A DNA stretch of 64,000 nt from a virus: positions 62,001 through 126,000 of the IMG/VR virus record IMGVR_UViG_3300042869_000672; one strand, 5' to 3'. Below, piece after piece: positions 43,971 through 59,781 of the stretch. A program made the position numbers and the translations under genes. The first letter of the stretch is position 1. Every line of letters starts with the position of its first letter. The notes beneath the pieces were generated by a model that did not search any database, was not told where the DNA came from, and was given only the letters and a program-made list of their open reading frames with translations.

Positions 43971-46900
43971 ATGGCTGAATTTAAACTAGGTAGATTGAGA
44001 TTTGTATGGAAGTCAGACTGGGTAACCGGCACTACATACTTCAAAGATGACATCGTTGCTTATGGTGGCAAAACATTCTTATGCGTGGTGGGTCATACTG
44101 CTGCCGCTGATTTTTACACCAATTTAGATAATATTCCCACTAAGTGGAATCAATTCAGTGACGGCCAAGATTGGAAAGGCAACTGGGGATCTTCAACGCT
44201 GTATAAAATCAACGACATAGTGAAATATGGCGGATACCTGTACATCTGTAATGACGGTCATACTAGTTCAAGCACACTAGAAGCTAATCAAGGCGATTGG
44301 GATATATTTGCAGAATCGTTTGATTGGCAAAATGCTTGGTCCACTGGTTATGTCTACAAGGTAAATGATCTTGTAAAATATGGTGGTTACGTTTACCTAT
44401 GTAACACAGGTCATACTTCAGCTGCCACCGCAGCATCAGGTCTTGAAGCCGATCAAGCCAAATGGGATCTATTCAACAAAGGACTTGATTGGAAAGGTGT
44501 ATGGAGTACTTCGGTACGATACAAGGTGGGAGATCTTGTAAAGTATGGCGGAAAAACCTATGTGTGTAATCTACATCACACATCAAATGCCAGCGCAGCA
44601 TCTGGTCTTGAAGCCGATCAAGCCAAATGGGACTATTTCAATGAAGGCATAGAATACAAAGGACAATGGGTAACAGCCACTAGATACAAAATTAATGATG
44701 TGGTAAAAAATGGTGGCGGTACTTATATCTGTGTGATTGAACACACAGGCGCCGGCAATTTTACCACAGACTACAATGCCGCACGTTGGAATCAATTTGT
44801 TGAAGGCATAGAATTTGAAGGTGAATGGTCCGCAGGCCCTACCTATCAACCAGGTGATATTGTACGCTACGGCGGCAACAGCTATATCGCTAAAACTGCA
44901 CATATTTCTTCAGGTGGATCTCCTCCAAGCACCAATACCACTGATTGGGACCTGTTTACTACAGGATTTAGATTGCAAGGAGATTGGAATTCAGGCACAG
45001 CCTACAAGATTGGAGAGATTGTTCGCCTTGGTGGATACACCTATGTGGCCACAGCGGACAATACCAATCAGTCTCCGCCTAATGCCAGTTACTGGAGTCT
45101 GCTGAATCAAGGTATAGATTGGGAAGGTGATTGGGTATTAGCATCTAGTTACGTGTTAGGTGATGCTGTGAAGTTTGGAGCCAACAGCTACATTGCTGTT
45201 CAAGCACACACATCTACTACCGGCCTAGATAGACCAGACAACGACACTATCGGTGCCTATTGGAATTTGTTGACAGCAGGTAATGAAGAATCTGCACTGT
45301 CGGCCACAGGTGATCTAGTATATTATTCAGGTGGCGGACCCACAAGACTACCAGTTGGCGACGAAGGACAAGTTTTAACTGTTGAAAACGGTTTGCCTAC
45401 TTGGAATTACTTTGGTCAAGTGGCCAAGGTGTTTTATGTTGCGCCACACGGAGTAAATTCTCCTGCGCCAACATACGGAGTCACTGTGGACAAGCCATGG
45501 GCCAGCGTAAGGTATGCCTGTGAGCAGATCACTAATGGTACAGAATATCCTAATGCTGCCTATTTGCTCAAGCAGAACAGAACATTTATACAAAAAGAAA
45601 TTGTAGAATATGTGAATTATCAAATCACCTATTACACAACCACAGTGCCTACACCGTCCAGCATTTGGTACAACTTTGTAAACGACAGTATTTCCGCATG
45701 CCAACGCGACATGGGATTAATTGTTGATGCCATTGTACATGATCTTACACATACTGGCAATGTTAAAACTCTTGAAGCCACTGAATCTTATTTTTCAGCA
45801 GGTGTATTGATTGCAGCTATCAATGATGAAGAGTTTCAATTAATTGAGGCAGTGAACTACGGACTTGTATTAATATCTCGTATACTGGCTAATCTTGCTC
45901 CAGCTCAAAACTATCAAACACTTAATGGCATTGGCGCAGGCAGTAGAATCAAACAGATTATTGATGCTGCATATACTGCTGAAGCCACTGCTTACACTCA
46001 GTGCGAGTCGTTGGCAGGCATACTCACAGCAGCGTTGGCCGCAGGTGTAGACACCGGTCTTCCAGTGTTGAATACTCCCGGATATACCCTACAGGTCAAG
46101 ACCGGACAATACTATGAAGTATTGCCAATTCCAGTTTTTCCAAACACAGCCGTTGTAGGTGATGAACTGCGTTCTACTAGAATTAGTCCTGCAGGCAGCT
46201 ACACATCAGCCAATGACAAAGCCAAATCAATTGCTACTTTGCAAAGACTGCAATCCATCACAGATGAAATTATTACCAATGCGGCAGTTACTCCTACAAC
46301 AGGAAATATAGCCACACAGGACACCACATCACAAAAAGCAGGTAATGTAGGTAGTGCAACAGCAGTGTCTTCAGTGTCTGCAAACGCTGCTGAAATCAAA
46401 GACATTGTTACAAACAATACTCCAAATGCCTATGTAAAACCAACTCCAACAGGCGGAACTGGTAATGCATTTACCGCAGGATACTTTGATGCTGCTCGTT
46501 TGATCAATGCTAACAAGGCGTTCTTGCAAGACGAAGTCAGCGAGTGGATACTGGCACAAATTGCTGCAAGTACCGTAGGATTCGTTGGATTTACCTATAC
46601 CGGCACACGTAGAACTAAATGTGAACGTGATGTAGGACTGATTGTTGATGCAGTGGTCTATGATTTGACCTACGGTGGAAATCTAGCAACTCAAATTGCT
46701 GCTAGATCATACTACAGTCTTGGCGTATTCCTTGAGCCAGCAGCAGAACTAGCACCAGCATTGGCAGTACAATTACGTATCAAAGATATCATTGACAATA
46801 TTGCCACAGGCGATACTGCCGGTTGGACAAAAACTACAGCACTATCACAAGATGTTTCTGGTACAGCAGGATCAGCGCCAGCAGCTACCGCTGCTCAAGC

Positions 46901-49900
46901 ACGTATTCAAGAAATATATGATACCATTAACACTGGTACTGAACCAACTACCATAGTACCAGATATCACTTGGCCAGCTGCTGCTTTGATCACTGCTAGA
47001 ACAGCATTGAACACTGCTAGAACAACTATTCGCAGCAATGCCGTACAGCATGTGAAGAAATTATTTCCTACATTGAGTTTTGACGAAACACTGTGTTCAC
47101 GTGATGTGGGATATATGGTAGACGCTCTAGGATTTGATCTAATGTTTGGATCAAACTTTTTGTCAATACAAAGTGGACTGTCATATCAAAGAGGCACTAC
47201 ATCAACACTGGTGGTTCTAAATTCACAACTAGCAGCGCAACAGGCTGTGATTGATTTTATATCTGTTGAAGCACAAAAAATTGTGGCTACAGGAGCTGTG
47301 GTACTGGCTGACGGACTGTGGACTGATATCATCAACTATGCCAATACCGGCACAGTGCCGCTTACTGTTGGCACCAATAGTCCCACAGAAGATCTTGACA
47401 GAATTAACGGTGCAAAAATACTGCAACTAAACAAAGAATTTATGGTTGCAGAAGCCAATGCCTATATTGCTGACACATTCAAGGCCACAGTAACATCGTC
47501 AGACGCCGCTACTGATGTATTCACCTGCAGTTCACAGACATGGATGGTAGCTGGAGACACAGTGAGATTCACAGGCACTGTGTTTGGCGGAATTGCTATT
47601 AACACAACCTACTATGTTTTGTCAACAGGACTAACAGCAACAACATTTAAGGTTTCAACCAGCCTAAACGGCACAGCAGTTGATCTTGGTGCGGCATCAG
47701 GCTCAATGGTAGTCAAATGGTATTACAATTCTGCTAGCTGTGAAAATGATGTTCGCAACTATATTGAATCTATTGCCTATGACATGGTATACACAGGCAA
47801 CTACAAATCAGTTCTAGCTGCTAGATACTATAGAAATTCATTAACTGGATCTAAACTTGAAGATCTGTTCTACTTCAAGAACGGATCAGGTCTACGCAAT
47901 TGCACACTGACTGGACTCGACGGCAGTTCCGATGGTACCAATACAGGATATCAAAGTGCGTTGACTACTACGGCCAACGAATACGGCACCTACAGACCAC
48001 GTGCAGGAGCCTATGCATCACTAGATCCAGGCTGGGGTCCTAATGACACCAGTGCATGGGTAACCAACAAATCAACCTATGTTCAAAACGTTACCACATT
48101 TGGTATCGGTTGCGTGGGTCAGAAAATTGATGGCAGCTTACACGCAGGCGGCAATGATTCTATCGTGTCCAACGACTTCACCCAGGTATTGAGTGACGGT
48201 ATTGGAGCATGGATTACCAATCTAGGTCGTGCAGAACTTGTGTCAGTGTTCTCTTATTACAACTACATCGGCTATCTAGCTGAAAATGGTGGTAAGATTC
48301 GTGCTACTAACGGTAACAACTCATACGGAACATTTGGTGCTGTAGCAGAATTCATAGATATTTCAGAAACACCTGTCACAGGTACAATCAACAACAGAGG
48401 CACAGAAGCCGATGTTCGCAGTGTGCTCACAGACGGCACTCAGATTCTACTGCATGAATTTGGCAATGCTGGTTCGGAAAATTCATCTGCATCATTTACC
48501 ATAAGCGGTACTGGAATTTCAGTGGCCACTGTGGCAGATGAATTTAGAGATGGAGCTGTATTTCAAGTAAGACTGACAGATCCAGGAGATTCTACTGGTC
48601 CTGGCGGAGTTGGTTACATCACAGCTCAAAGTCTAGCACAGGCAGGAAACACAACTCAAATTACCCTGGCAGCTTCTGATATCAACAGTTCAGCAGCCTA
48701 TGTTGGCATGAGCATTTACATGATTGGCGGCTTAGGAGCAGGTCAATACGGATACATAAACTCCTACTCCGCAGCCAGCAAAGTGGCCACAGTGTACAAA
48801 GAAAGCACAGGCACCCCAGGTTGGGATCATGTGATACCAGGTACACCTATTGTGGCTGCCATGGATCTTACTTCTAACTATCAGATCACTCCTAGACTGC
48901 AATTTTCAGCACCACCCTTTACCAAAACCACTGCCGACTTGCCAAGCAGTCAAACATGGTCAGATGTGGTGTTCGGTGATGGATATGCTGTTTATAGTGG
49001 TGTGGCTTCAACAGTATCAAGCGGCTCAGGTAGCTTGGCCACATTCAACGTCACTAGACGCTATGGCATCTACTCAGTAACTATACAGGCCGGCGGAGTG
49101 TTGTATACGGTAGGAAATACCTTGACCGTTCTAGGATCAAGTCTAGGCGGCACATCTCCTGCCAATGATATCACAGTCACAGTAGCCGCAGTTACTTCGC
49201 CTGGTGGCGCAATAACTAGATTTACCAGCAGCGGAACAGCAGTAACAGCCAAATTTGTAGCCATAGCAGGCGGTGTAAATTCATCTACTAACGCAGCCGC
49301 TACCAGTCTAGACGGCATAACATGGACAGCAATGACCATGCCATCGTCACAGCAATGGTCAGCCATTGCCTACGGTGTGGTCAGCAATGTCAGCTATTAT
49401 GTGGCAGTGGCTAGAGAAAGCTCAGTGGCTGCATATTCTAGAGATGGTGTAAATTGGACAGCTTCCAATCTAAATGAAGTTGCTGACTGGTGCGACATTG
49501 ACTACGGCAACGGTGTATTTGTTGCTGTATCAGAAAGTGATTCTAGTTCAACATTCAGAGCATGGAGTTCAGACAACGGCATTAATTGGAACACCACTAC
49601 ATTCGCATCGGGCGCCAAGGCCATTGCCTATGGTTTCAGCAGATTTGTTGTGGTAGAAGGCAACTTCTCCAACGCAGTGGCATATTCAACCAACGGTGCT
49701 ACATGGACAGTGACCACATTGCCAAGCAATGATGACTCTACAGAATCAAACTGGGTAGACATTGCCTACGGTAATGGACGCTATGTTGCAATTTCAGATA
49801 GTTCTGCAATGGCAGCATACAGTTTCAACGGTGCCACATGGTACAAGAGCAACTTGCCTAGCATTGCTGAATGGAGTTCTATCGGTTATGGTCAAGGCGT

Positions 49901-52331
49901 ATTTTATGTTACCAGTGCAGGAGATGCAGCAGCAACTTCGCCAGACGGTGTCACTTGGACTCTAAGAGACGGTTCATATGCATCCTTTGATATCACAGAG
50001 ACCGCACAGAACGTAAACACTGCCTATGCAGAGACAGCTACATTAACAAGTGGCACATGGAGTGATGTTATTTGGACCGGCACACAGTTTGTTGCTGTTG
50101 GTTACAGCGGTGCAGCTGGTCTAGTTGCAACCAGCACAACCGGTACATCATGGACTAATGCTACATTGCCCACAGTTAACAGCACATATGAATATACCAC
50201 AGTGGCCTATAACGGCTCAAACCAATATGTTGCAATCATTGGCGGAAACGGCGGCACTAGAAATATTGCTACATCTCCTGATGCAGTGACCTGGACAGGA
50301 GCACTGAACGCTCTAACTACTGTTTCTTTTTGGAAAGACCTAGCCTACGGCAACGCAACTTATGTGGCCATAATGGGAGATCTCAACAGGATCAACTATT
50401 CAGCCAACGGAACAACATGGACATCAGTAACGCTAGGCGGTGTAGCGTCGAGTGAGATGAGTGCTATAGCTTATGGTGCAATCGGTGGAACTAACTACTT
50501 TGTTACCGTTGCTGGTTATTCAACAGGTAGTCAAGTATCTTCTTATTCTACAAATAACGGTGTTGCTTGGACTTCAGCTGCTTCACTACCTAGTTCAGAC
50601 TTCTGGGCAGATGTGGCATTTGGCAACAGCAGATTTGTTACTGTTGCAGGCGGAACAGGTTCTACTTCAACCAAGGCAGCATATTCAACCAACGGCACAA
50701 GTTGGACAGCAGCAACGCTACCAGGTGCAGCCACACGTTGGAACAAGATTGTCTACGGTGGCGGAGCATTTACTGCATTTGCTTACAACTCAAATAGAAC
50801 TGCTTACTCAGTAGACGGTATTACTTGGGTTGAAGGAAATACACAAGCAGCCACTAGAAACTGGGGACCTGCAGCATACGGAAACACTAAAAACGTTGTA
50901 TTAGCGACAGGCACAGCAATCGGATCTTACAACGACTTTGCATTGAATACCAACTATCTAACCACTTCAAGCACAACTACCAAGTTAAACGTCAATGACA
51001 GAATTAGATTTATCAGCGATTCTGCAGGTTCTGAAATATTTGGTGGAGTTAGAGCTGACTCAGGTGGCCAGTTATGGTATTATGTAACCAGCGTGGTTGA
51101 CTCAACAAGATTTACACTGTCACAAACACTGGGTGGTGCTAATATTACACTGACCACAGGCAGCGGTTCTATGTTGGCTTTATCATCCAAGACCTATGTG
51201 GCCAGTGCGTTGGGCAACAACAACGGTACTCCAAATTGGGTGGTATTGGCGCAGAACAGCCAAGGAGTGCAAAATATTAGACAAGGTGCTACAGCTCGTG
51301 CTCGTGCTTATGTGTTAGATGATGCACTAACAGAAATTTGGATACATGAGCCAGGATCGGGTTATGTGACTGCTCCAACAATGACCATTACTGACCCTAA
51401 TAACACAGGTGCAGATGCTCCTACTGTGGTACGTATTGGTAATGGTGCTATTGCACAGCCAACATATACCAATAGAGGCACAAGTTACTCGGCTGCGGCT
51501 ACTACTATAATTGGCAACGGTTATGCCGATAACTATCAGGTGGGAACTTTTGTGGGATTCACTGGTCTCAGTGGTATTCCAACAGCTGGTTCAAACGTGC
51601 AGATAGCTGGCATAGATGACATATGGTACAGACTGGTCAATGTTTCCAGCGTGTTGCCTTTGGCTGATGGCACCTACTCTGCTACTCTGCAGGTAAGCCC
51701 ACCAGTTGGTGTTGCTGAAGCTCCAGAGCACTTGAGCGGCGGAATTATAAGACGTAGATACAGTCAGGTACGACTAACTGGACACGATTTCTTGGACATA
51801 GGTACAGGCAATCAAGTGAATACCAATTATCCAGGACTGCCAGTTACTGACCCGATTCCTGCCAATGAAACCATAGGCAGTGGTGGTGGTAGAGTATTCT
51901 ACACTTCAACGGACCAGGACGGTAACTTTAGAGTTGGTGGATTGTTTAACGTTGAGCAATCAACGGGTGTTGCAACGCTGAATGCTGACGCTTTTAACAT
52001 TGCAGGATTGAACGAGTTGAGTTTGGGCTCAGTGGCACTAGGCGGTTCAGGTGCAACAATTACTGAATTCTCAACAGACCCGTTCTTTACACAAGATTCC
52101 GACAATATTATACCTACACAGCGAGCAATTAAAGCCTACATTACCAGCCAAATTGGCGGCGGCGGGTCTAGTTTGAACGTAAATAGTCTTACAGCCGGTG
52201 TTATATTTGTGGCCGGACAAACTATTACTACAACTACAAATGTGGCAATAAACATAAATACTAAGGTGAATTTCAAAGGCGGTATTGCTGGTTTACCCCT
52301 TGTGTTAAATTACTTCTTACTAAACAATTGA
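43971..52331 (+). CDS. Giant adhesin/fibre protein, 2786 aa paralogue of the preceding gene
   Basis: This protein has the layout of the 1845 aa neighbour, enlarged. Eight W-Y-D-V-Y-G-G-Y repeats span about residues 8-455 (for example YKVNDLVKYGGYVYLC). A beta-helix region starts at about 485 and includes four copies of a helical unit around RDVGLIVDAVVYDLTYGGN (near 580, 886, 1045 and 1260), where the smaller protein has one. GYLAENGGKIRATNGNNSYG lies near 1430. BNR-like repeats (about 1661-2316) are roughly twice as many. The C-terminus again has FYTSTDQDGNFRVGGLF and PTQRAIKAYITSQI. Duplication with later module expansion is the simplest origin. It is likely a virion adhesin. Confidence 0.75.
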   Translation: MAEFKLGRLRFVWKSDWVTGTTYFKDDIVAYGGKTFLCVVGHTAAADFYTNLDNIPTKWNQFSDGQDWKGNWGSSTLYKINDIVKYGGYLYICNDGHTSSSTLEANQGDWDIFAESFDWQNAWSTGYVYKVNDLVKYGGYVYLCNTGHTSAATAASGLEADQAKWDLFNKGLDWKGVWSTSVRYKVGDLVKYGGKTYVCNLHHTSNASAASGLEADQAKWDYFNEGIEYKGQWVTATRYKINDVVKNGGGTYICVIEHTGAGNFTTDYNAARWNQFVEGIEFEGEWSAGPTYQPGDIVRYGGNSYIAKTAHISSGGSPPSTNTTDWDLFTTGFRLQGDWNSGTAYKIGEIVRLGGYTYVATADNTNQSPPNASYWSLLNQGIDWEGDWVLASSYVLGDAVKFGANSYIAVQAHTSTTGLDRPDNDTIGAYWNLLTAGNEESALSATGDLVYYSGGGPTRLPVGDEGQVLTVENGLPTWNYFGQVAKVFYVAPHGVNSPAPTYGVTVDKPWASVRYACEQITNGTEYPNAAYLLKQNRTFIQKEIVEYVNYQITYYTTTVPTPSSIWYNFVNDSISACQRDMGLIVDAIVHDLTHTGNVKTLEATESYFSAGVLIAAINDEEFQLIEAVNYGLVLISRILANLAPAQNYQTLNGIGAGSRIKQIIDAAYTAEATAYTQCESLAGILTAALAAGVDTGLPVLNTPGYTLQVKTGQYYEVLPIPVFPNTAVVGDELRSTRISPAGSYTSANDKAKSIATLQRLQSITDEIITNAAVTPTTGNIATQDTTSQKAGNVGSATAVSSVSANAAEIKDIVTNNTPNAYVKPTPTGGTGNAFTAGYFDAARLINANKAFLQDEVSEWILAQIAASTVGFVGFTYTGTRRTKCERDVGLIVDAVVYDLTYGGNLATQIAARSYYSLGVFLEPAAELAPALAVQLRIKDIIDNIATGDTAGWTKTTALSQDVSGTAGSAPAATAAQARIQEIYDTINTGTEPTTIVPDITWPAAALITARTALNTARTTIRSNAVQHVKKLFPTLSFDETLCSRDVGYMVDALGFDLMFGSNFLSIQSGLSYQRGTTSTLVVLNSQLAAQQAVIDFISVEAQKIVATGAVVLADGLWTDIINYANTGTVPLTVGTNSPTEDLDRINGAKILQLNKEFMVAEANAYIADTFKATVTSSDAATDVFTCSSQTWMVAGDTVRFTGTVFGGIAINTTYYVLSTGLTATTFKVSTSLNGTAVDLGAASGSMVVKWYYNSASCENDVRNYIESIAYDMVYTGNYKSVLAARYYRNSLTGSKLEDLFYFKNGSGLRNCTLTGLDGSSDGTNTGYQSALTTTANEYGTYRPRAGAYASLDPGWGPNDTSAWVTNKSTYVQNVTTFGIGCVGQKIDGSLHAGGNDSIVSNDFTQVLSDGIGAWITNLGRAELVSVFSYYNYIGYLAENGGKIRATNGNNSYGTFGAVAEFIDISETPVTGTINNRGTEADVRSVLTDGTQILLHEFGNAGSENSSASFTISGTGISVATVADEFRDGAVFQVRLTDPGDSTGPGGVGYITAQSLAQAGNTTQITLAASDINSSAAYVGMSIYMIGGLGAGQYGYINSYSAASKVATVYKESTGTPGWDHVIPGTPIVAAMDLTSNYQITPRLQFSAPPFTKTTADLPSSQTWSDVVFGDGYAVYSGVASTVSSGSGSLATFNVTRRYGIYSVTIQAGGVLYTVGNTLTVLGSSLGGTSPANDITVTVAAVTSPGGAITRFTSSGTAVTAKFVAIAGGVNSSTNAAATSLDGITWTAMTMPSSQQWSAIAYGVVSNVSYYVAVARESSVAAYSRDGVNWTASNLNEVADWCDIDYGNGVFVAVSESDSSSTFRAWSSDNGINWNTTTFASGAKAIAYGFSRFVVVEGNFSNAVAYSTNGATWTVTTLPSNDDSTESNWVDIAYGNGRYVAISDSSAMAAYSFNGATWYKSNLPSIAEWSSIGYGQGVFYVTSAGDAAATSPDGVTWTLRDGSYASFDITETAQNVNTAYAETATLTSGTWSDVIWTGTQFVAVGYSGAAGLVATSTTGTSWTNATLPTVNSTYEYTTVAYNGSNQYVAIIGGNGGTRNIATSPDAVTWTGALNALTTVSFWKDLAYGNATYVAIMGDLNRINYSANGTTWTSVTLGGVASSEMSAIAYGAIGGTNYFVTVAGYSTGSQVSSYSTNNGVAWTSAASLPSSDFWADVAFGNSRFVTVAGGTGSTSTKAAYSTNGTSWTAATLPGAATRWNKIVYGGGAFTAFAYNSNRTAYSVDGITWVEGNTQAATRNWGPAAYGNTKNVVLATGTAIGSYNDFALNTNYLTTSSTTTKLNVNDRIRFISDSAGSEIFGGVRADSGGQLWYYVTSVVDSTRFTLSQTLGGANITLTTGSGSMLALSSKTYVASALGNNNGTPNWVVLAQNSQGVQNIRQGATARARAYVLDDALTEIWIHEPGSGYVTAPTMTITDPNNTGADAPTVVRIGNGAIAQPTYTNRGTSYSAAATTIIGNGYADNYQVGTFVGFTGLSGIPTAGSNVQIAGIDDIWYRLVNVSSVLPLADGTYSATLQVSPPVGVAEAPEHLSGGIIRRRYSQVRLTGHDFLDIGTGNQVNTNYPGLPVTDPIPANETIGSGGGRVFYTSTDQDGNFRVGGLFNVEQSTGVATLNADAFNIAGLNELSLGSVALGGSGATITEFSTDPFFTQDSDNIIPTQRAIKAYITSQIGGGGSSLNVNSLTAGVIFVAGQTITTTTNVAININTKVNFKGGIAGLPLVLNYFLLNN
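44439..44632 (+). repeat. 29 nt direct repeat within the chitin-binding-like array
   Basis: The bases 44439-44467 recur exactly at 44604-44632, 165 nt (55 codons, one repeat unit) apart. They encode GLEADQAKW of repeats 3 and 4. Such identity in otherwise diverged repeats suggests recent duplication or conversion between units. Confidence 0.85.
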
Positions 52332-52344
52332 TGGAGATCAGAGA

Positions 52345-52665
52345 ATGGCAACAGGATTATTAGGTCAAGCGGCACCGGCCGCAGCAACATACACTACACT
52401 GTACACAGTGCCTGCAACTACTTTTACAGTATTGGGCCTCAGTCTCTGTAATCGCGGAACAACCACAGTGTCAGTGAGAGTGGCGTTGGCCACATCAGCA
52501 ACACCAACAAACTCAGAATTTATAGAATATAATGCTGAAATTGGTGCTAACGGAGTATTGGAAAGAACCGGTATCATGATGAACGCAAACAAATTGCTGG
52601 TAATCTATGCTAGTAATGCAAACGTATCGGCCAGTGCCTTTGGCATTGAAACTTCAACATTATAA
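52345..52665 (+). CDS. Small beta-sandwich-like structural protein
   Basis: The 106 aa product (MATGLLGQAAPAAATYTTLY...) has TLYTVPATTFTVLGLSLCNR, then VSVRVALATSATPTNSEFIE and NANKLLVIYASNANVSASAF. This is the form of small head- or fibre-decoration proteins common in marine T4-like phages and resembles the 127 and 110 aa proteins. GGAGA precedes the ATG. Confidence 0.65.
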   Translation: MATGLLGQAAPAAATYTTLYTVPATTFTVLGLSLCNRGTTTVSVRVALATSATPTNSEFIEYNAEIGANGVLERTGIMMNANKLLVIYASNANVSASAFGIETSTL

Positions 52666-52686: not shown

Positions 52687-53013
52687 ATGGGACGACAAGT
52701 ATCATCCTTTGGAACAGATAGTGTAACAAACAGAACTGTGACAACATCACAGTCAGTGCTAGCCGGCGAACGCATATTTGCAAACGCCACATCAGCATCG
52801 TTTACTCTGACACTGCCTGCTTCACCTAGTGAAGGGGACACTATACAAATCATCGACGTGGCAGGAATTTTCGCAACAAATCCTGTTACCGTTGCAAGAA
52901 ACGGATTAAAAATCGCCAATCTTACAGAAGATTTGATTTTGAACCTCAACAACGCAGCAGTGACCTTGATATATTCCGGTGCAACATTTGGCTGGGTATT
53001 CATTGGACCATAA
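52687..53013 (+). CDS. Small beta-rich structural protein
   Basis: The 108 aa product has VLAGERIFANATSASFTLTL, PASPSEGDTIQIIDVAG, FATNPVTVARNGLKIANL and AAVTLIYSGATFGWVFIG, a pattern I associate with short C-terminal domains of phage fibre and receptor-binding proteins. Here it is a free-standing protein before the cysteine-rich trio. A role as a fibre collar or cap is a guess. Confidence 0.65.
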   Translation: MGRQVSSFGTDSVTNRTVTTSQSVLAGERIFANATSASFTLTLPASPSEGDTIQIIDVAGIFATNPVTVARNGLKIANLTEDLILNLNNAAVTLIYSGATFGWVFIGP

Positions 53014-53025
53014 TCGGAACTTATA

Positions 53026-54054
53026 ATGGCAAAACTATCTGACCTATTATCTACAAGAGAGATTACAGCCAACCAGAATAATCTGGAAAAGGGCAAGGTC
53101 TGGGTCGTAAGTCCAACTGCAATGGCCACTTGTATTAGAAGTGACAACTTGTGGTGTTGGACATCTCCGGGTTGTGGAACACTCACTATTGAAATGTGGG
53201 GTGCTGCTGGTAGTGGCTCTCGCATGTGTTGCTGCGGCTTTGGACTACCTGGAAATGCACCTGGCTATACCAAAAAAACTCTAGCTGTATTTTGCGGATC
53301 AAACATTTGTGGCTGTCCAGGCCAGGCCTGCAATGCGCATGATCTTTGCTTCTCAGGATGTAGTCTACCCACATATTTGCAGTGGAAACAGGCTCGAGAC
53401 CTATGCGGATACACCAGCGGTTGCATGTGCGCTCAAGGTGGTCGAGCAGGTACATCTATCTGTTCCACTGGTACCGGCCCCTACTGCTGTTTCCGTGCTG
53501 CAGGATTTTGCAATTCACAATTTACTTCTGGTGCTGCTGGTTGCGGTATTATCTGCAATCACTGCTCAGGAGGCTTCCTTGCTTGCGGTTATGGTGGCGA
53601 CATCAACTGCTGCGGCTGTATTTCATACATGCACTGGATGTGCGACATCGGAAACGCAAGACCCTGTTATGTACACCAATTTATTGCTTTTGCAGCAGGT
53701 ATATTTGCTGAACAGGGTGGTATAATTGCATCCAAGCCCGACGAAGATCCAGAATACTCACAGTGGTCAGGTGCAGGATTCATGGAACACATGCATACTC
53801 TACATGCTACCAGTCGTTCGCCCACTGGCGGCGTTCCTTGGATGGGATGTTGGACCGGTGGTCAATTCTGCGGTTGCTATGAAAACTCTGGCTGTGTGCC
53901 ATATTCACCTTATGGTGTAGGCGGAGCTGCACCTATGCCTTGCGATGGTGTCAGAGATCACGGCAAACGTGGCGGCCACGGTGCCATACGATTAACATAC
54001 AGAGGTTCGGGCGCCTTGAATCAAAACTGCGCAGTACTAGGAAGGGGAATATAA
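53026..54054 (+). CDS. Cysteine/glycine-rich protein 1 of 3
   Basis: The 342 aa product contains about 34 Cys and is very rich in Gly. The N-terminus up to about residue 45 is ordinary. A glycine-rich fibre-tip-like strand follows, GTLTIEMWGAAGSGS, then the trio's hallmark RMCCCG(F)GLPGN, and later CMCAQGGRAGTSIC, CGIICNHC, GGDINCCGC and FCGCYENSGC. No signal peptide or membrane segment is visible. Gly-rich tip domains with MWGAAGSG occur in phage adhesins, usually without cysteine. If this is a virion adhesin, the cysteines could bind metal or form disulfides after release. The role is not known. Confidence 0.75.
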   Translation: MAKLSDLLSTREITANQNNLEKGKVWVVSPTAMATCIRSDNLWCWTSPGCGTLTIEMWGAAGSGSRMCCCGFGLPGNAPGYTKKTLAVFCGSNICGCPGQACNAHDLCFSGCSLPTYLQWKQARDLCGYTSGCMCAQGGRAGTSICSTGTGPYCCFRAAGFCNSQFTSGAAGCGIICNHCSGGFLACGYGGDINCCGCISYMHWMCDIGNARPCYVHQFIAFAAGIFAEQGGIIASKPDEDPEYSQWSGAGFMEHMHTLHATSRSPTGGVPWMGCWTGGQFCGCYENSGCVPYSPYGVGGAAPMPCDGVRDHGKRGGHGAIRLTYRGSGALNQNCAVLGRGI

Positions 54055-54055
54055 A

Positions 54056-55294
54056 ATGGCACTACTCACACAATTATTAGGTAATCGCGAGCAGGCCTTC
54101 GAAGACAATCTTGAAAAAGGTAGAATTTGGGTCTATACAGACGGCAATATGTACACCTCATTCTGTAATGGCTTTTGCTGGCGTTCTCCGGGTACAGGAT
54201 GTATAGTGATCGAATCCTGGGGTGCTGCTGGTTCAGGAGCACAGATGTGCTGCTGTGGTGCAGGCCTACCAGGAAATGCACCTGCGTACACAAAAAAATG
54301 TCTTTGCGTGATTGCAGGCAACTATGTCTGCGGCTACATTGGACGTTCATGCAATAACTCATCAGCACTATGCTTTAGAGGTTGTTCAGAAGCCACCTGC
54401 GTTTGCTGGTTTGGATGTTCACCAAAAGCCCTATATGAAGGTGGCTACTATCCAGGTGACAGCGACAGCTTTAAGGGCAACAATCCTTGGGGTTGGGGCT
54501 CAGGCGGCGGCGATCCATTGAGCTCAAATGAAGGCAACGTAAACTTTCAAAACGGCGGCAATTGCGGTATCACTGGCGGCAACACATTGAACGCTAGTGG
54601 CAACGGCAACTGCTGTTCGTGGACTCAATGTCGTGCAGCAGGTGCAACTAACGGCTGCATATGCGCACAAGGCGGCAAAGGCGGCATATCAATTTGCATA
54701 GATTCAATATCTGCATATACAGTCTTTAGATGTAATTATTTCTGTGGCAGCCCCCTTGGCCCAGGCAACTCGGGTTGTAATACAGGATCACATTGCGGTA
54801 TGATCTGCAACATTTGTCAAACAACGGATGCATCACTAGGATTTATTGGCTGTGGCTACGGTGGCGACGTCAACTGCTGCGGTGGTTGGTCATGCGTATC
54901 ATTCCAGGGCTGCTGGCCAATTTGCCCATGTCTAACACAGTATCATGTGCCTGTAGCCGCAAATATTTTTGCAGAAGAAGGCGGACAGTTTTCGTACACA
55001 ACAAATTCAGACGGACAAGGGCCGACTGAATGGTCAGGAGCTCCGACACTCAATCAAATTAATGCCTTGACTACCATGAGTAGACAGCCTGGTCCAAATG
55101 CCTACACTACATGTTGGCCTGGTGAGCGAGGTTGTGGCTGCTATGAAATGCAGGGCTGCATGAACTTTTTTCCATACGGTGTTCCGGGCGCAGCTCCCCA
55201 TCCATGTCCAGGTGTGCGTGATCATGCCAGTCGTGGTGGTATGGGAGCTGTAAGAATTAAATATATTCCAGCAACAGGAGGCACATCGTACTAA
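54056..55294 (+). CDS. Cysteine/glycine-rich protein 2 of 3
   Basis: The 412 aa paralogue has about 40 Cys. It shares DNLEKGRIWVY near the N-terminus, IESWGAAGSGAQMCCCGAGL, CNNSSALCFRGCSEATCVCW, CICAQGGKGGISIC, CGYGGDVNCCGG and CGCYEMQGC with its neighbours, and ends in GGMGAVRIKYIP. An insertion of about 60 residues rich in Gly/Asn/Trp (GWGSGGGDPLSSNEGNVNF) lies near 140-200 and explains its greater length. It starts two bases after the preceding stop codon, so the three are translated together. The role is unknown. Confidence 0.75.
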   Translation: MALLTQLLGNREQAFEDNLEKGRIWVYTDGNMYTSFCNGFCWRSPGTGCIVIESWGAAGSGAQMCCCGAGLPGNAPAYTKKCLCVIAGNYVCGYIGRSCNNSSALCFRGCSEATCVCWFGCSPKALYEGGYYPGDSDSFKGNNPWGWGSGGGDPLSSNEGNVNFQNGGNCGITGGNTLNASGNGNCCSWTQCRAAGATNGCICAQGGKGGISICIDSISAYTVFRCNYFCGSPLGPGNSGCNTGSHCGMICNICQTTDASLGFIGCGYGGDVNCCGGWSCVSFQGCWPICPCLTQYHVPVAANIFAEEGGQFSYTTNSDGQGPTEWSGAPTLNQINALTTMSRQPGPNAYTTCWPGERGCGCYEMQGCMNFFPYGVPGAAPHPCPGVRDHASRGGMGAVRIKYIPATGGTSY

Positions 55295-55295
55295 C

Positions 55296-56288
55296 ATGGC
55301 AAACTTAAAAACACTTGTAGAAGCCAAACTTGATCAAATAGAGTTTGACGAAACAAATCTAGACAAGGGCAGAGTCTGGGCCTATAGCCCAGGTTCAGAA
55401 TACACAAACTTTGTCAACGGATTTTGTTGGATTGCCTGTACCACAGGCAAGGTCATTTTGGATGTGTGGGGCGCTGGCGGCAGTGGTGCTAGAATGTGCT
55501 GCTGCGGACACGGTGTGCCAGGAAATCCAGGTGCATGGTCACGCAAATGTATTTGCGTAATAGCTGGCTGTTATATCTGTGGTCACGTGGGCAAAAGCTG
55601 CAACAATGCTGATGCACTGTGTTTCCGTGGGTGTTCCGAAGCATCATGTGTGTGCTGGTATGGCAGGAATCCTTCAACTGGCGCTGCCATAAACGGCTGC
55701 ATGTGTTCACAAGGTGGACGTGGGGGTACAACCTATTGCAATCCATCGGGCGTAATTTTCTGCTGTTTCATCAGCGGCAACTTCTGTAACACCAACTATT
55801 CCAACGGTACCTGCGGCATTATTTGCAATTACGGTTCGGGTACAGGATCATGCTGCGCAGAGTCCTACGGCGGCGATATAAATAAACGCGGTGGATTTAG
55901 CTGTGTGACATTCTGGACCTGTTATTCAAACTGCCCATGTTCAACACACTATCACACAGCCATTCCTCCAGGCATGTTTGCCTGTGATGGCGGCGTAGTC
56001 AGTACAGGTATGGATGACAACAACGGATTTTCCAACTGGTCAGGAATGGGATTCCATCAGTTCAGCCAAGGTATCAATGCCATGAGCCGCTCACCAAATC
56101 GAGGAATCCCATTTACTGCATGTTGGACCTCCAACAGAGCCTGTGGCTGCTATGACGTACAAGGATGTATGCCATTCTTTCCAGTAGGAGTAGGTGGTTT
56201 ACCAGCTAATCCCTGCGGTGATGTTCGTGACAACGGATGGCGCGGCGGCCTAGGATTGGTTAGAATTAATTTTATTGCAAAGGATTAA
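55296..56288 (+). CDS. Cysteine/glycine-rich protein 3 of 3
   Basis: The 330 aa paralogue has about 34 Cys. It follows the previous stop by one base. Shared blocks are ETNLDKGRVWAYSPGSEY, LDVWGAGGSGARMCCCGHGV, CNNADALCFRGCSEASCVCW, NGCMCSQGGRGGTTYC and CGCYDVQGCMPFFPVGVGG, and the end is GGLGLVRINFIAKD. The block GGDINKRGG lacks the cysteines of the GGDINCCG block of protein 1. Divergence between copies is large outside the cysteine and glycine framework, as expected of a receptor-binding module under selection. The role is unknown. Confidence 0.75.
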   Translation: MANLKTLVEAKLDQIEFDETNLDKGRVWAYSPGSEYTNFVNGFCWIACTTGKVILDVWGAGGSGARMCCCGHGVPGNPGAWSRKCICVIAGCYICGHVGKSCNNADALCFRGCSEASCVCWYGRNPSTGAAINGCMCSQGGRGGTTYCNPSGVIFCCFISGNFCNTNYSNGTCGIICNYGSGTGSCCAESYGGDINKRGGFSCVTFWTCYSNCPCSTHYHTAIPPGMFACDGGVVSTGMDDNNGFSNWSGMGFHQFSQGINAMSRSPNRGIPFTACWTSNRACGCYDVQGCMPFFPVGVGGLPANPCGDVRDNGWRGGLGLVRINFIAKD

Positions 56289-56290
56289 AA

Positions 56291-56935
56291 ATGAGAAAAG
56301 CGTTTACAACGGTTATGCCGGACGAACCATATAAAACAACCACCAAGAAAAATATCACAGTGGATTGCGTTTACATCGGTAAAAGATATCTGCTGGTTAG
56401 ATTCAACAACGATGGCACCATATTTGCCTTGGAAAAACAAGGTGAAACACTGCCGGAAGTTGAGATGTACAAACTCACAGAGCAACAACTGGCAGCAGAA
56501 AAACAATTTCAGATTGTTATAGATGCAGAAGTCAATACATGGGAAGCTGCACATCTAACACACGATTATGAACACGGAGCAGTAGCTGACCCAACATTTA
56601 CTCTAGCAGATGGCAGTACATGGACCTATCACTATGATGATTTTCATGGCGCATTGGATCAACCCTACTATACCAACGACATGAGGTACGATCGTGCTAC
56701 TAATACTTTGATTCGTCCTAGATATCGTACTCATGCGGTAACCAAAGAAACGTTTTGGGCAAACATGAACGATCAACTCAAGGCCTTTGAACTTGCTGCC
56801 GGATCAACTAGCTATCTACCAGAAAGACTAACAGAAATTAGAGCACATAGAGATTGGTTAAAAACTGCTATTACAAAATATGCAGGTGAAGATCACTGGA
56901 AAGTTCCGTTCCCAACTAGTACGCCTTCAATTTAA
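56291..56935 (+). CDS. Protein downstream of the cysteine-rich trio
   Basis: The 214 aa product has VDCVYIGKRYLLVRFNNDG early, then FTLADGSTWTYHYDDFHGAL, and a helical C-terminus ending in EIRAHRDWLKTAITKYAG. It has no clear family match. Being the last gene before a strong terminator and directly after the trio, it might be a chaperone or assembly factor for those proteins, as gp38/gp57-type helpers are for T4 fibres. That is inference from position only. Confidence 0.55.
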   Translation: MRKAFTTVMPDEPYKTTTKKNITVDCVYIGKRYLLVRFNNDGTIFALEKQGETLPEVEMYKLTEQQLAAEKQFQIVIDAEVNTWEAAHLTHDYEHGAVADPTFTLADGSTWTYHYDDFHGALDQPYYTNDMRYDRATNTLIRPRYRTHAVTKETFWANMNDQLKAFELAAGSTSYLPERLTEIRAHRDWLKTAITKYAGEDHWKVPFPTSTPSI

Positions 56936-57020: not shown

Positions 57021-57962
57021 ATGTCTAGATCGAAAGCATTTTTTATAAATGGCGGCGCTGGTAGAATGATTAGTTCTGTTCCAGCTTTTGAAAAATACCT
57101 AGAGGAATCAGATGATAAAGATTTTATCATTGTTTGCGAAGGTGGAACAGATGTCTTTAAAGGACATCCTAAACTAGATGATCGTGCCTACGACATCTGG
57201 CACAAGGGTCTTTTCAAAGACTACTTGAAAAATCGTGAAATTGTCACAACAGAACCCTATAGAGTCTGGGAATACTACAACCAACAATGTTCAATTGCAC
57301 AGGCCTTTGACATACAGGTCAACAACAAAGGACTACGAGAACTGCCAAAACCTACACTTAGGTTGTCCAAAGATGAACTACTGAATGGTAGATCAGTGGT
57401 CAGCGAAGTAAAGAAAAAACTTAAAAAAGAAAAACTAGTGGTATTTCAACCCTATGGCCGAGGTGTTGAATACATTGACGAAACCTTGCTTGACCGCACA
57501 GCACGAAGTTTTGAATTAAAAGACGTAAAAGCCATAGTGAAAAAGCTGCAACAAAATGACTATGCAGTGATAATGATGAGCGAGTTCAAAACAGATCTAT
57601 CAGATGCTAAACTCAAAGAAGAAGTGGCCATGCCTGAAAATGTCAACATGCGAGTTTGGGCAGCAATAATCAAATATGCCGATCATTTCTTGGGTTGCGA
57701 TAGTTTGGGACAACACCTTGCATATTCAATGGAAACTCCATCAACAATTATCACAGGAGCCACATATCCTATAAATGTGTCTTATCCGGATTGCGAGTAT
57801 TTTGAAATACTAGACATGGGCGAAATACATAGAGAATACGATCCTATCAGAATTTTACCTGATGAGCGAGTGAACAGAATAAATGAAAATATCATGTCAA
57901 TGACAGACGACATAACTACACTAGTAGTAAATCACGTATTAGGAAAAAAAGATGACAGTTAA
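57021..57962 (+). CDS. Glycosyltransferase family 9-like protein
   Basis: The 313 aa product starts KAFFINGGAGRMISSVPAFE, like the N-terminal Rossmann half of GT-B heptosyltransferases, which has a G-x-G-D-x-x-x-x-x-P layout. Near residue 225 it has GCDSLGQHLAYSMETPSTII followed by GATYP, matching the GT9 nucleotide-sugar motif (D-S-x-x-x-H-x-A, then a G-x-T-x-P). A heptosyl- or other sugar transfer to a surface polysaccharide or a virion protein is the likely role. It overlaps the carbamoyltransferase gene by 11 nt, and the pair is read as a unit behind the terminator at 56957. Confidence 0.75.
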   Translation: MSRSKAFFINGGAGRMISSVPAFEKYLEESDDKDFIIVCEGGTDVFKGHPKLDDRAYDIWHKGLFKDYLKNREIVTTEPYRVWEYYNQQCSIAQAFDIQVNNKGLRELPKPTLRLSKDELLNGRSVVSEVKKKLKKEKLVVFQPYGRGVEYIDETLLDRTARSFELKDVKAIVKKLQQNDYAVIMMSEFKTDLSDAKLKEEVAMPENVNMRVWAAIIKYADHFLGCDSLGQHLAYSMETPSTIITGATYPINVSYPDCEYFEILDMGEIHREYDPIRILPDERVNRINENIMSMTDDITTLVVNHVLGKKDDS

Positions 57963-59781
57963 AACCATATCAGCAAAAAAATCAAATAAACCCGTGTGGG
58001 TCGCAGCCATTGCTCGCGGACATAATGCAGGCATCTGTCTACTAAAAGACGGAGAGATTGTATTTTCTATCGAAGAAGAAAGATTGAGTCGTCAAAAGTA
58101 TGACGGCGGTCCGCTTGCGTCAATGGTTAAGATTTTAGAATACACAGATAAGCTAGACTTTTTGGTTGTAGCACATACACAGAGTCTTGCAGATTCTTCG
58201 GGAAAAATTGATTATACCGGCGACGATATGTACACTGGCCTAGCTCGAAAGTTAGGACTAATTGATAGAAAAGTAGCTAACCTACACAAACATCCTCAGG
58301 TGATTGATCTCAGTTTCATGCATCACAAGCTGCATGCTGCCTGCGCATTTTATCGTTCAGGTTGGGAAGATGCAGTTTCTTTGATTGTTGATGGTGCAGG
58401 CACATTCTATCAAATGAGTTACAACGACCAACCACTGTGGGTATGGGAAGTTGAGTCTATTGTTGATTGTGCATATCCTGCAGATTTCAAAACTCTTTAC
58501 AAAAATTACGGTGCAAGAGATCCTATTGTTGGAACATTTCAAGCTGAATTTCCTTCTGCAAATTTAGGCGAGGATGGCGAAACACACGAAGCATGGGTTA
58601 GTGATCGTGCAGGCATTGTCAAGGCCTACGAGGGAGTAACTGAATATTGTGGATTCTCAGCTATTGAAGCTGGAAAGACTATGGGATTATTTCCATACGG
58701 AAAAGCCAACAATAAAATTCCTCCGTTGTTTGATACAACATCTAAAATTCCGTTAACAAATAGAAACTTATTGGTGCCAAAATATCCAATGAGTAGCATG
58801 GTTAATTCACAACTATTTGATTATATTGACGAATTTCCTGAAGATCCTAAAGGTGATGTTACCTACATGGACAATCGTAGAGATATGGCCTATGCTGTTC
58901 AGACACAGACGCAAGAACAGGTGGTAAGACTAATCAAATTAGCCGCAGAAAAAAGTGGAAAGAATCGTGTTGTTATTTCCGGAGGCTATGGATTAAACTG
59001 TGTTGCTAACTATCATTATCTAGAAGAATTAAAAGATAGCGGCATTGAAATTTATGTTGAACCTATCAGCAATGATGCAGGTACAGCAATGGGCGCAGGT
59101 CTGCTGTTCTATCATGGCATGTATGACGATACTACCATACGTAAATACGATACTTTGTATTATGGCCCTGTACACACTTATACCAGTGAAGAAATTGCTG
59201 CAAAGGCAGAAGCTGCTAATGCAGAAGTTACAGATGCTACAGCTAAAGACATTGTCAAGCTGTTACGTGAAAAAAACATTGTGACTATCTTCCAAGGACG
59301 TTCAGAAAACGGACCACGTGCCCTAGGCAATCGTTCAGTGCTGTTTGATCCAACATTTGAAGACGGCAAAGACTATGTGAATGCAGTCAAGCATCGTGAA
59401 TACTTCCGCCCATTTGCGGGAAGTATTCTAGAAGAAGATGTACACGAGTGGTTTGATTTACGTGGAATGAAAAACAGTCCATTCATGATGTACGCTGTAA
59501 ACTGCCAGCCAGGAGTTGAAGAAAAGATTCCAAGCATTATTCACGAAGATCATACCTGCCGTATTCAAACAGTTAATCCTGAGCAGAACAAGCACTACTA
59601 TGATTTGATCAAAGCATTCAAAGATGAAACAGGCGTTCCTATCCTGTTTAATACCAGCTTTAATCTAGGTGGCGAACCCCTAGTAGAAACACTAGATGAT
59701 GCTATTTGGACATTACAAAAGTCAGAAATTGAATACCTGTACTTGCCCGAGTACAGTAAACTAATTAAAATTGCCAACTAA
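57952..59781 (+). CDS. Carbamoyltransferase (NodU/CmcH/TobZ family)
   Basis: This 609 aa protein transfers the carbamoyl group of carbamoyl phosphate to a hydroxyl, usually on a sugar. N-terminal ASKHA features include AIARGHNAGICLLKDGEIVF, SIEEERLSRQK (about 40-50), HHKLHAACAFYRSG (about 125-138) and LIVDGAGTFY. The C-terminal YrdC-like half has VISGGYGLNCVANY, IFQGRSENGPRALGNRSVL (about 446-464), REYFRPFAGSIL and ILFNTSFNLGGEPLVET. All blocks of the family seem present, so the enzyme is probably active. Pairing with a GT9-like protein points to modification of a glycan on the virion or host surface. Marine T4-like phages carry such genes. Confidence 0.93.
   Translation: MTVKTISAKKSNKPVWVAAIARGHNAGICLLKDGEIVFSIEEERLSRQKYDGGPLASMVKILEYTDKLDFLVVAHTQSLADSSGKIDYTGDDMYTGLARKLGLIDRKVANLHKHPQVIDLSFMHHKLHAACAFYRSGWEDAVSLIVDGAGTFYQMSYNDQPLWVWEVESIVDCAYPADFKTLYKNYGARDPIVGTFQAEFPSANLGEDGETHEAWVSDRAGIVKAYEGVTEYCGFSAIEAGKTMGLFPYGKANNKIPPLFDTTSKIPLTNRNLLVPKYPMSSMVNSQLFDYIDEFPEDPKGDVTYMDNRRDMAYAVQTQTQEQVVRLIKLAAEKSGKNRVVISGGYGLNCVANYHYLEELKDSGIEIYVEPISNDAGTAMGAGLLFYHGMYDDTTIRKYDTLYYGPVHTYTSEEIAAKAEAANAEVTDATAKDIVKLLREKNIVTIFQGRSENGPRALGNRSVLFDPTFEDGKDYVNAVKHREYFRPFAGSILEEDVHEWFDLRGMKNSPFMMYAVNCQPGVEEKIPSIIHEDHTCRIQTVNPEQNKHYYDLIKAFKDETGVPILFNTSFNLGGEPLVETLDDAIWTLQKSEIEYLYLPEYSKLIKIAN

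Follow-up and report, generated by a model that had tools for sequence, protein, structure and literature searches.

The cysteine-rich triplet and the linked enzymes

Three tandem genes for glycine-rich, cysteine-dense proteins (C1 to C3) mark the genome of a virus represented in IMG/VR by record IMGVR_UViG_3300042869_000672 (187,679 bases, 187.7 kb). They were analyzed in a stretch of 64,000 nucleotides, positions 62,001 to 126,000 of the record, which is called here the window. Downstream lie genes for a helper protein, a glycosyltransferase resembling family GT9 (GT9-like), and a carbamoyltransferase. A sequence-only reading of the same DNA had taken the triplet for adhesins, an idea which is supported here, but had overlooked the two linked enzymes, which are the strongest clue to the role of the cysteines. 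The five genes of main concern are the following:

53026..54054, + strand: C1, cysteine-rich adhesin paralogue 1 (342 amino acids, 34 cysteines; phrog_4205, E=1.2e-11)
54056..55294, + strand: C2, cysteine-rich adhesin paralogue 2 (412 amino acids, 40 cysteines; extra insertion of ~70 amino acids; assigned by tree)
55296..56288, + strand: C3, cysteine-rich adhesin paralogue 3 (330 amino acids, 34 cysteines; phrog_4205, E=3.6e-10; AlphaFold2 model like the Pam3 fibre)
57021..57962, + strand: GT9-like glycosyltransferase, proposed cysteine-modifying enzyme (313 amino acids; phrog_8954, E=4.6e-137)
57952..59781, + strand: NodU/NolO-like O-carbamoyltransferase, proposed to carbamoylate the sugar (609 amino acids; phrog_1601, E=3e-165)

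The triplet had been described as coupled, paralogous genes of these lengths and cysteine numbers. Both points are confirmed: each stop codon is separated from the next ATG by 1 nt, and identity to C3 in the alignment is 42–48%. Cysteine makes up 9.7–10.3% of C1 to C3, and no more than 2.7% of any other window open reading frame (ORF) of at least 140 amino acids. C1 to C3 have the three highest cysteine densities among the ORFs of the whole record; the fourth-ranked ORF is antisense to minus-strand genes, and the triplet genes are the sole credible cysteine-dense genes across the 187.7 kb. Among the motifs noted earlier, MCCCG and CGCY are found in all three proteins, while the others are narrower in range. 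CFRGCSEA is exact in C2 and C3, and reads CFSGCSLP in C1; GGDxNCCG is found in C1 and C2, and reads GGDINKRG in C3; FCGCY is exact in C1 alone. The earlier remark that ordinary glycine-rich phage domains lack these cysteines holds for a related phage, whose Gly_rich_2 tail protein has 0.27% cysteine. This protein (L102, G003:32279-32992) is encoded elsewhere in that genome, and makes a useful internal control.

The triplet is under strong purifying selection, nonsynonymous (dN) and synonymous (dS) divergence from orthologues measuring 0.12–0.36 and 0.8–2.3, respectively. Orthologues at 63–84% protein identity retain 81–100% of the cysteines.

Linkage of cysteine-rich proteins to the GT9-like gene

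Close homologues of the GT9-like enzyme (at least 35% identity) were found, among 50,697 phage records, only in cyanophages carrying the cassette, in their single-cell relatives, and in two other marine viruses known from single cells, AG-345-P14 and AG-345-O18. Proteins encoded beside the gene in the latter two (282 amino acids with 26 cysteines, 758 with 73, 290 with 31) are not glycine-rich adhesins, yet contain 9–11% cysteine, and for this reason the linkage was tested with the GT9-like protein alone as bait. Two such scans of IMG/VR gave 160 loci. ORFs in the GT9-like loci are sharply bimodal in cysteine content: 1223 have less than 4%, 404 at least 6%, and only 1 falls between.

Cysteine-rich ORFs were found, at any place in the locus, in 136/136 loci identified by the enzyme alone. 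These loci form 96, 56 and 6 clusters at 95%, 80% and 60% enzyme identity, respectively, and a cysteine-rich ORF is present in 56/56 of the 80% clusters. A stricter count, limited to ORFs upstream on the same strand, gave 134 of the 138 loci having at least 3.5 kb of upstream sequence; three of the four exceptions carry three cysteine-rich ORFs just downstream on the opposite strand, and the fourth (L180) has a second GT9-like gene near the contig end. In the reverse direction, both enzymes are present in all loci found by the cysteine-rich protein alone and endowed with enough downstream sequence (66/66). The carbamoyltransferase resides in 150/150 GT9-like loci of the main group. No annotated gene exceeding 5% cysteine was found in three cyanophage loci where the carbamoyltransferase has no adjacent GT9-like gene. 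Further loci on genome contigs all include cysteine-rich ORFs (9/9). Since main-group phages are related, the 136 loci cannot be counted as so many independent events. The GT9-like tree requires just two changes of adhesin type, and the independent contrasts are the glycine-rich (Gly-type), O18-type, P14-type, HJ05 and Vibrio lineages.

Gene arrangement varies at some loci. One carbamoyltransferase gene is flanked by two GT9-like genes in L180:1317-5079. Both enzymes lie on one strand, and three cysteine-rich ORFs nearby on the other, in L173:12746-15685, L206:12455-15377 and L245:12737-15712. A helper homologue sits between cysteine-rich copies in L173 and L206, as PSSM2_305 sits between the two copies of P-SSM2. 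Cassette contigs L273–L281 come from marine metagenome-assembled genomes (MAGs) labelled Euryarchaeota, Neomarinimicrobiota, Rhodobacteraceae, Actinomycetota, Gammaproteobacteria and Flavobacteriales. A cellular origin of the GT9-like homologues in the nine MAG loci was considered and rejected; because the same cassette is present, they are read as mis-binned phage contigs.

Cysteine-dense proteins of unrelated fold

Remote GT9-like homologues, sharing 22–25% identity with the window enzyme, were identified in 31 Vibrio phage records and in Aeromonas phage HJ05. This branch and the window enzyme are placed in one family by hhalign (probability 99.7%). In the Vibrio phages SBP1, D505 and K479 the gene next to the enzyme encodes a tail protein of 925–1756 amino acids with 39–41 cysteines, locally as dense as 10–11 per 100 amino acids. 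The HJ05 neighbour is a protein of 559 amino acids, in which 21 of the 23 cysteines fall within the last 280 residues. The most cysteine-dense ORF of the genome adjoins the enzyme in both SBP1 and HJ05 (62 and 71 ORFs, respectively); the proteins are gp067 in SBP1 and HJ05_49 in HJ05. BLASTP comparisons among the Vibrio proteins, the HJ05 protein, the proteins of AG-345-O18 (O18a, O18b) and AG-345-P14, and C3 revealed no similarity across groups; the HJ05 protein matches Gly_rich_2 weakly (E=0.017). O18a, the protein with 73 cysteines (L108:8024-10300), looks by eye like the 106-amino acid tail protein encoded at 52345-52665 of the window, split by a cysteine-rich insertion of ~600 amino acids. 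IMG/VR searches gave no relatives of the HJ05 enzyme and near-copies only of the SBP1 enzyme, so the distant branch is documented by three protein variants of Vibrio phages plus HJ05.

Neither Vibrio nor Aeromonas was found among the 134 carbamoyltransferase matches tallied by organism. Because the Vibrio and Aeromonas phages have no carbamoyltransferase, and their neighbouring proteins have unrelated folds, the partner that stays the same throughout is the GT9-like enzyme. As judged from these gene associations, cysteine density tracks the GT9-like enzyme, not the fold and not the carbamoyltransferase.

The same distribution bears on a different kind of cysteine modification, in which the carbamoyltransferase would act directly on thiols, or the GT9-like protein would transfer a group other than a sugar. 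HypF, a relative of the carbamoyltransferase, carbamoylates a cysteine of HypE. HypF models match the window carbamoyltransferase, weakly (E=2.5e-4 and 5.7e-5), and the presence of the enzyme in every main-group locus fits the idea as well. In contrast, Vibrio and Aeromonas phages are enriched in cysteine without the enzyme, and its main similarity is to the sugar O-carbamoyltransferases NodU, TobZ and GdmN. We regard this alternative as improbable.

The genes might also form a co-inherited host-recognition island, in which the enzymes would act during infection on sugars of the host surface, perhaps to keep out superinfecting phages, and cysteine richness would be an unrelated trait. Heptose-pathway genes present in some loci, including annotated ones in S-CAM1 and P-SSM2, agree with this picture, which leaves unexplained why all the exchanged, unrelated tail proteins are enriched in cysteine, and is held to be rather unlikely.

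Tail genes, family and fold of the triplet

The genes flanking the triplet, all on the same strand, are predicted to be tail-related:

43971..52331, + strand: giant tail adhesin, located before the cassette (2786 amino acids; given as context)
52345..52665, + strand: tail-fibre associated protein (106 amino acids; phrog_11338 tail fiber, E=1.5e-8; syntenic in most loci)
52687..53013, + strand: tail protein with tail-fibre domain (108 amino acids; many tail PHROGs; 628 phage records; syntenic)
56291..56935, + strand: helper, probable tail-fibre assembly chaperone (214 amino acids; phrog_9740 in 23/23 homologues; AlphaFold2 predicted local distance difference test score (pLDDT) 93.9)

Close relatives of the triplet were found in 34 largely syntenic IMG/VR loci, where the order is tail fibre, 106-amino acid protein, 108-amino acid protein, three cysteine-rich proteins, helper, 313-amino acid protein, carbamoyltransferase. 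The cysteine-rich copies are adjacent in all 34, and are three wherever the locus sequence is long enough. A counterpart of the 106-amino acid protein is found at the same position in S-CAM1, S-CAM3 and P-SSM2. The N-terminal part of the 2786-amino acid protein features a repeat unit of ~60 amino acids, Y..NDIVKYGG..Y.C...HT.

C1 and C3 match phrog_4205, to which no function is assigned, as do 17/19 family members; C2 alone gave no match. No Pfam match to Gly_rich_2 (PF21722) was obtained for C1 to C3 at the curated cut-off, which is passed by the third copies of the S-CAM1/S-CAM3 type (40.4 and 38.0 vs 24.3 bits). In terms of sequence, C1 to C3 are distant relatives of Gly_rich_2, not members by the cut-off. 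Cultured phages gave nothing at 1e-5 in tblastn searches with C2 and C3; a search at relaxed E with a divergent homologue led to S-CAM1 and S-CAM3. These cultured cyanophages share the cassette, with 8–12% cysteine in proteins labelled 'hypothetical protein' in GenBank. Cysteine-rich copies number three also in S-SSM7, where they are SSSM7_114 to 116, and in Sf-FS3, and two in P-SSM2, where they are PSSM2_304 and PSSM2_306. In a maximum-likelihood tree the window C1, C2 and C3 types group apart from the cyanophage triplet with support of 100/100 on both sides, and the P-SSM2-type pair makes an additional long branch. The split may reflect either separate triplication or homogenised copies. The usual count of three in both lineages would be consistent with a tip built from three subunits.

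The adhesin sequences gave no meaningful sequence match in the PDB. A C3 model built by AlphaFold2 on 89 relatives (pLDDT 78.8, predicted template modelling score 0.79) has the fibre of cyanophage Pam3 as top PDB match in Foldseek (7ypx_A, E=5.5e-6, prob 1.00, TMt 0.51), followed by 7yfw_a, and then by glycine-rich domains of ALK/LTK and by the tail tip of Bxb1. Template modelling (TM) scores of 0.40–0.51 to the Pam3 fibre, at 12–13% identity, are modest, and support a common fold type, not a detailed model. C1 to C3 are thus probably receptor-binding fibre tips; the earlier proposal of a receptor-binding cassette is sustained by the syntenic tail-fibre genes, by the relation to Gly_rich_2 and by the fold match to the Pam3 fibre.

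The same proposal gave the cassette its own helper, which is plausible. The 214-amino acid protein is a conserved neighbour, adjoining the cassette in 130/150 loci, and its cyanophage relatives are placed after or inside the cassette; its similarity to Tfa-type chaperones is weak, the phrog_4912 'tail fiber assembly' match (0.0044) being seen in 3/23 homologues. In a Foldseek search with the helper model, proteins of S-CAM1 and P-SSM2 came first, and tail assembly chaperones in BFVD followed with weak matches (E ~0.01 and worse), and its fold search against the PDB gave no match. The helper is a probable chaperone.

Evolution of the cysteines

Changes of cysteine residues were followed in 82 sister pairs of the glycine-rich family. 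Cysteine is the most conserved residue (96% vs 87% overall). One cysteine change was found in 27 pairs and two in 6; in the 46 changed pairs, cysteine differences are odd in 35 and non-zero even in 11. W, P, R and K, residues which have no partners, show a similar odd bias. Cysteines are exchanged mainly with N, A, T, R, S, G, V and Q, often polar residues, and only four cysteine columns are common to all six paralogue groups. Paired gain and loss, as in disulfide-knotted proteins, is not the pattern of the changed sister pairs. Single-site change fits accessible cysteines that act singly better than it fits obligate pairing within a chain; pairing between chains, and functional redundancy among many thiols, are compatible with it.

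This pattern bears on the possibility that the adhesins are hardened by disulfides formed after lysis, within or between chains of a trimer, the enzymes modifying host or phage glycans to other ends. High cysteine density and conservation agree with hardening of this kind, as does a slight excess of even cysteine totals (38 even, 24 odd among 62 non-redundant proteins); the ALK/LTK domains, next-best fold matches of C3, are extracellular. The odd, single changes, resembling those of unpaired residues, and the paucity of shared columns speak against it, local pairing seems unlikely in the dense stretches of unrelated Vibrio tail proteins, such as CVCACAY, and the strict linkage to the GT9-like gene is left unexplained. 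We consider disulfide hardening unlikely. Cross-linking had been among the roles first suggested, and its obligate intrachain form is disfavoured by the single changes.

Clustered thiols might otherwise hold zinc, iron or copper, for stability of the tip or receptor mimicry. CC and CxC clusters are present in the proteins, and iron-binding HxH tail fibres reported and hypothesised in marine phages (PMC11705849) offer a precedent. CxxC motifs are scarce (1–2 per protein), cysteine positions drift and change singly, and metal binding would account neither for the enzyme linkage nor for the recurrence in unrelated folds; there is little probability in our view that the tips bind metal.

A proposed route of cysteine modification

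GT9 enzymes transfer sugars, and to the wider group belong the Aah/TibC heptosyltransferases, which act on serines of adhesins. On these grounds S-glycosylation is proposed. Gene linkage and the mode of cysteine change suggest, with slightly less than an even chance, that each cysteine is modified on its own, most likely by S-glycosylation, and that the sugar is carbamoylated. A broader formulation is put forward a little more tentatively: phages may encode a cysteine glycosylation system, in which the GT9-like enzyme S-glycosylates tail adhesins of unrelated fold having ~4–13% cysteine, locally or overall, as acceptors, the sugar being carbamoylated in cyanophages and jumbo phages.

According to this scheme, C1 to C3 would be paralogues that form the receptor-binding tips of a tail fibre and have a Pam3-type fold, with an N-terminal helix, a beta-sandwich and a glycine-rich distal domain, and their cysteines would be acceptor sites for post-translational modification. 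The GT9-like enzyme would most likely put a sugar on individual thiols within the reducing cytoplasm, a setting which would be favourable, since it keeps the thiols available to the enzyme. The NodU-like carbamoyltransferase, where present (main group), would carbamoylate the sugar, and the helper would aid folding or trimerisation. On the completed tip these (carbamoylated) sugars would form a dense coat, sharing in or shielding host recognition. The proteins themselves, their fold match, the strict gene linkage, the fold-independent cysteine density and the single-site change of cysteines are observed; what the enzyme acts on, the linkage through sulphur, the identity of the sugar, the sequence of reactions and the position in the virion are inferred.

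Several points weigh against S-glycosylation. The window enzyme matches PF01075 below the cut-off (E=0.014, 15.2 bits, cut-off 22) and has no sequence match in the PDB. Acceptors of known GT9 enzymes are lipopolysaccharide sugars or serine, and we know of no GT9 member acting on cysteine. Heptose-pathway genes are near a minority of loci (kinase 33/150, isomerase 16/150). Loci were gathered by similarity to cysteine-rich or GT9-like baits, not by cysteine composition. The linkage reflects in part common descent, as the GT9-like tree separates the Gly-type from the O18/P14-type once.

The PF01075 match is weak across the GT9-like family (17/28 members); S-CAM1 scores 22.0 bits, at the cut-off, and the Vibrio D505 homologue 24.5, above it. 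Heptosyltransferase models of NCBIfam match weakly as well (0.039 for the Aah/TibC type). The C-terminal region (GCDSxGQH...GSTYP) aligns with GT9 and heptosyltransferase models, and the N-terminal region has conserved motifs of its own, GGxGR and EPYR...NQ. Assignment of the window protein to this enzyme class thus leans on weak profile scores and on the Vibrio relatives. The carbamoyltransferase carries both Carbam_trans domains (PF16861, 2.9e-58; PF02543, 1.4e-25), and its PDB relatives are TobZ and GdmN.

Other genes near the cassette were noted in cyanophages. Between the helper and the GT9-like gene, Sf-FS3 has a gene annotated as 2-oxoglutarate (2OG)-Fe(II) dioxygenase (L106:7585-8217), possibly a further modifying enzyme, and S-SSM7 a similar-looking gene annotated 'minor coat protein' (L105:7640-8299). 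A gene of 117 amino acids annotated 'cysteine dioxygenase' lies downstream of the cassette in S-CAM1 (L048:12835-13188).

Cysteine-dense proteins are difficult to account for in a phage assembled in a reducing cytoplasm. If correct, S-glycosylation would provide a dedicated phage route to thiol-linked decoration of host-binding tips, and would explain the convergence of unrelated adhesins on a high cysteine content. Genes without an assigned function in model cyanophages, P-SSM2 among them, would gain one, as would the carbamoyltransferases called 'Nol-like' in these phages. The phage enzyme family might also be of use for S-glycosylation.

The virus

The window virus is a jumbo T4-like phage: one of its relatives reaches 353 kb, and its baseplate, portal and late sigma genes are of T4 type. 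A cyanophage identity is not supported, as psbA was found neither in its record nor in eight related ones. Two Photo_RC matches were found in S-CAM3 vs none in the window virus or the eight related records, and the nearest relatives of its SbcC are jumbo phages, which counts against a cyanophage. The seawater setting imagined earlier for lysis finds no support for this virus.

Comparison with known systems

A description of the cassette was not found in the literature searched. Pam3 gp24 (7YPX) forms a trimeric fibre, has a glycine-rich end proposed to bind the receptor, and needs the chaperone gp25 (PMC9608196); cysteine goes unmentioned in that paper. The window proteins resemble gp24 in the N-terminal helix, the beta-sandwich and the glycine-rich distal receptor domain, and a chaperone-like gene is near both. 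They differ at 12–13% identity, and gp24 is the product of one gene, in contrast to three paralogues in the window. C1 to C3 share with Gly_rich_2 (PF21722) and phrog_4205 / phrog_35878 the WGAGGSG start and the GxVRIxY end; they fall below the Pfam match, and differ in cysteine content from the ordinary Gly_rich_2 tail protein. The hypothetical proteins of S-CAM1, S-CAM3, S-SSM7, Sf-FS3 and P-SSM2 in GenBank have the same cassette and synteny, with 8–12% cysteine, and make a clade separate from the window triplet, for the types included in the tree.

The window enzyme resembles GT9 heptosyltransferases, including Aah/TibC, in the C-terminal region, and differs in scoring weakly, in being restricted to phages, and in its N-terminal motifs. 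The carbamoyltransferase shares both Pfam domains, with strong scores, with NodU/NolO, TobZ and GdmN, and differs as a phage gene inside an adhesin cassette. To our knowledge, thiol-linked sugar chemistry is so far mainly known from a few bacteriocins. Glycocin S-glycosyltransferases of the SunS type put a sugar on cysteines of small bacteriocins; they belong to a different enzyme family, have different substrates, and share with the window system the proposed chemistry alone.

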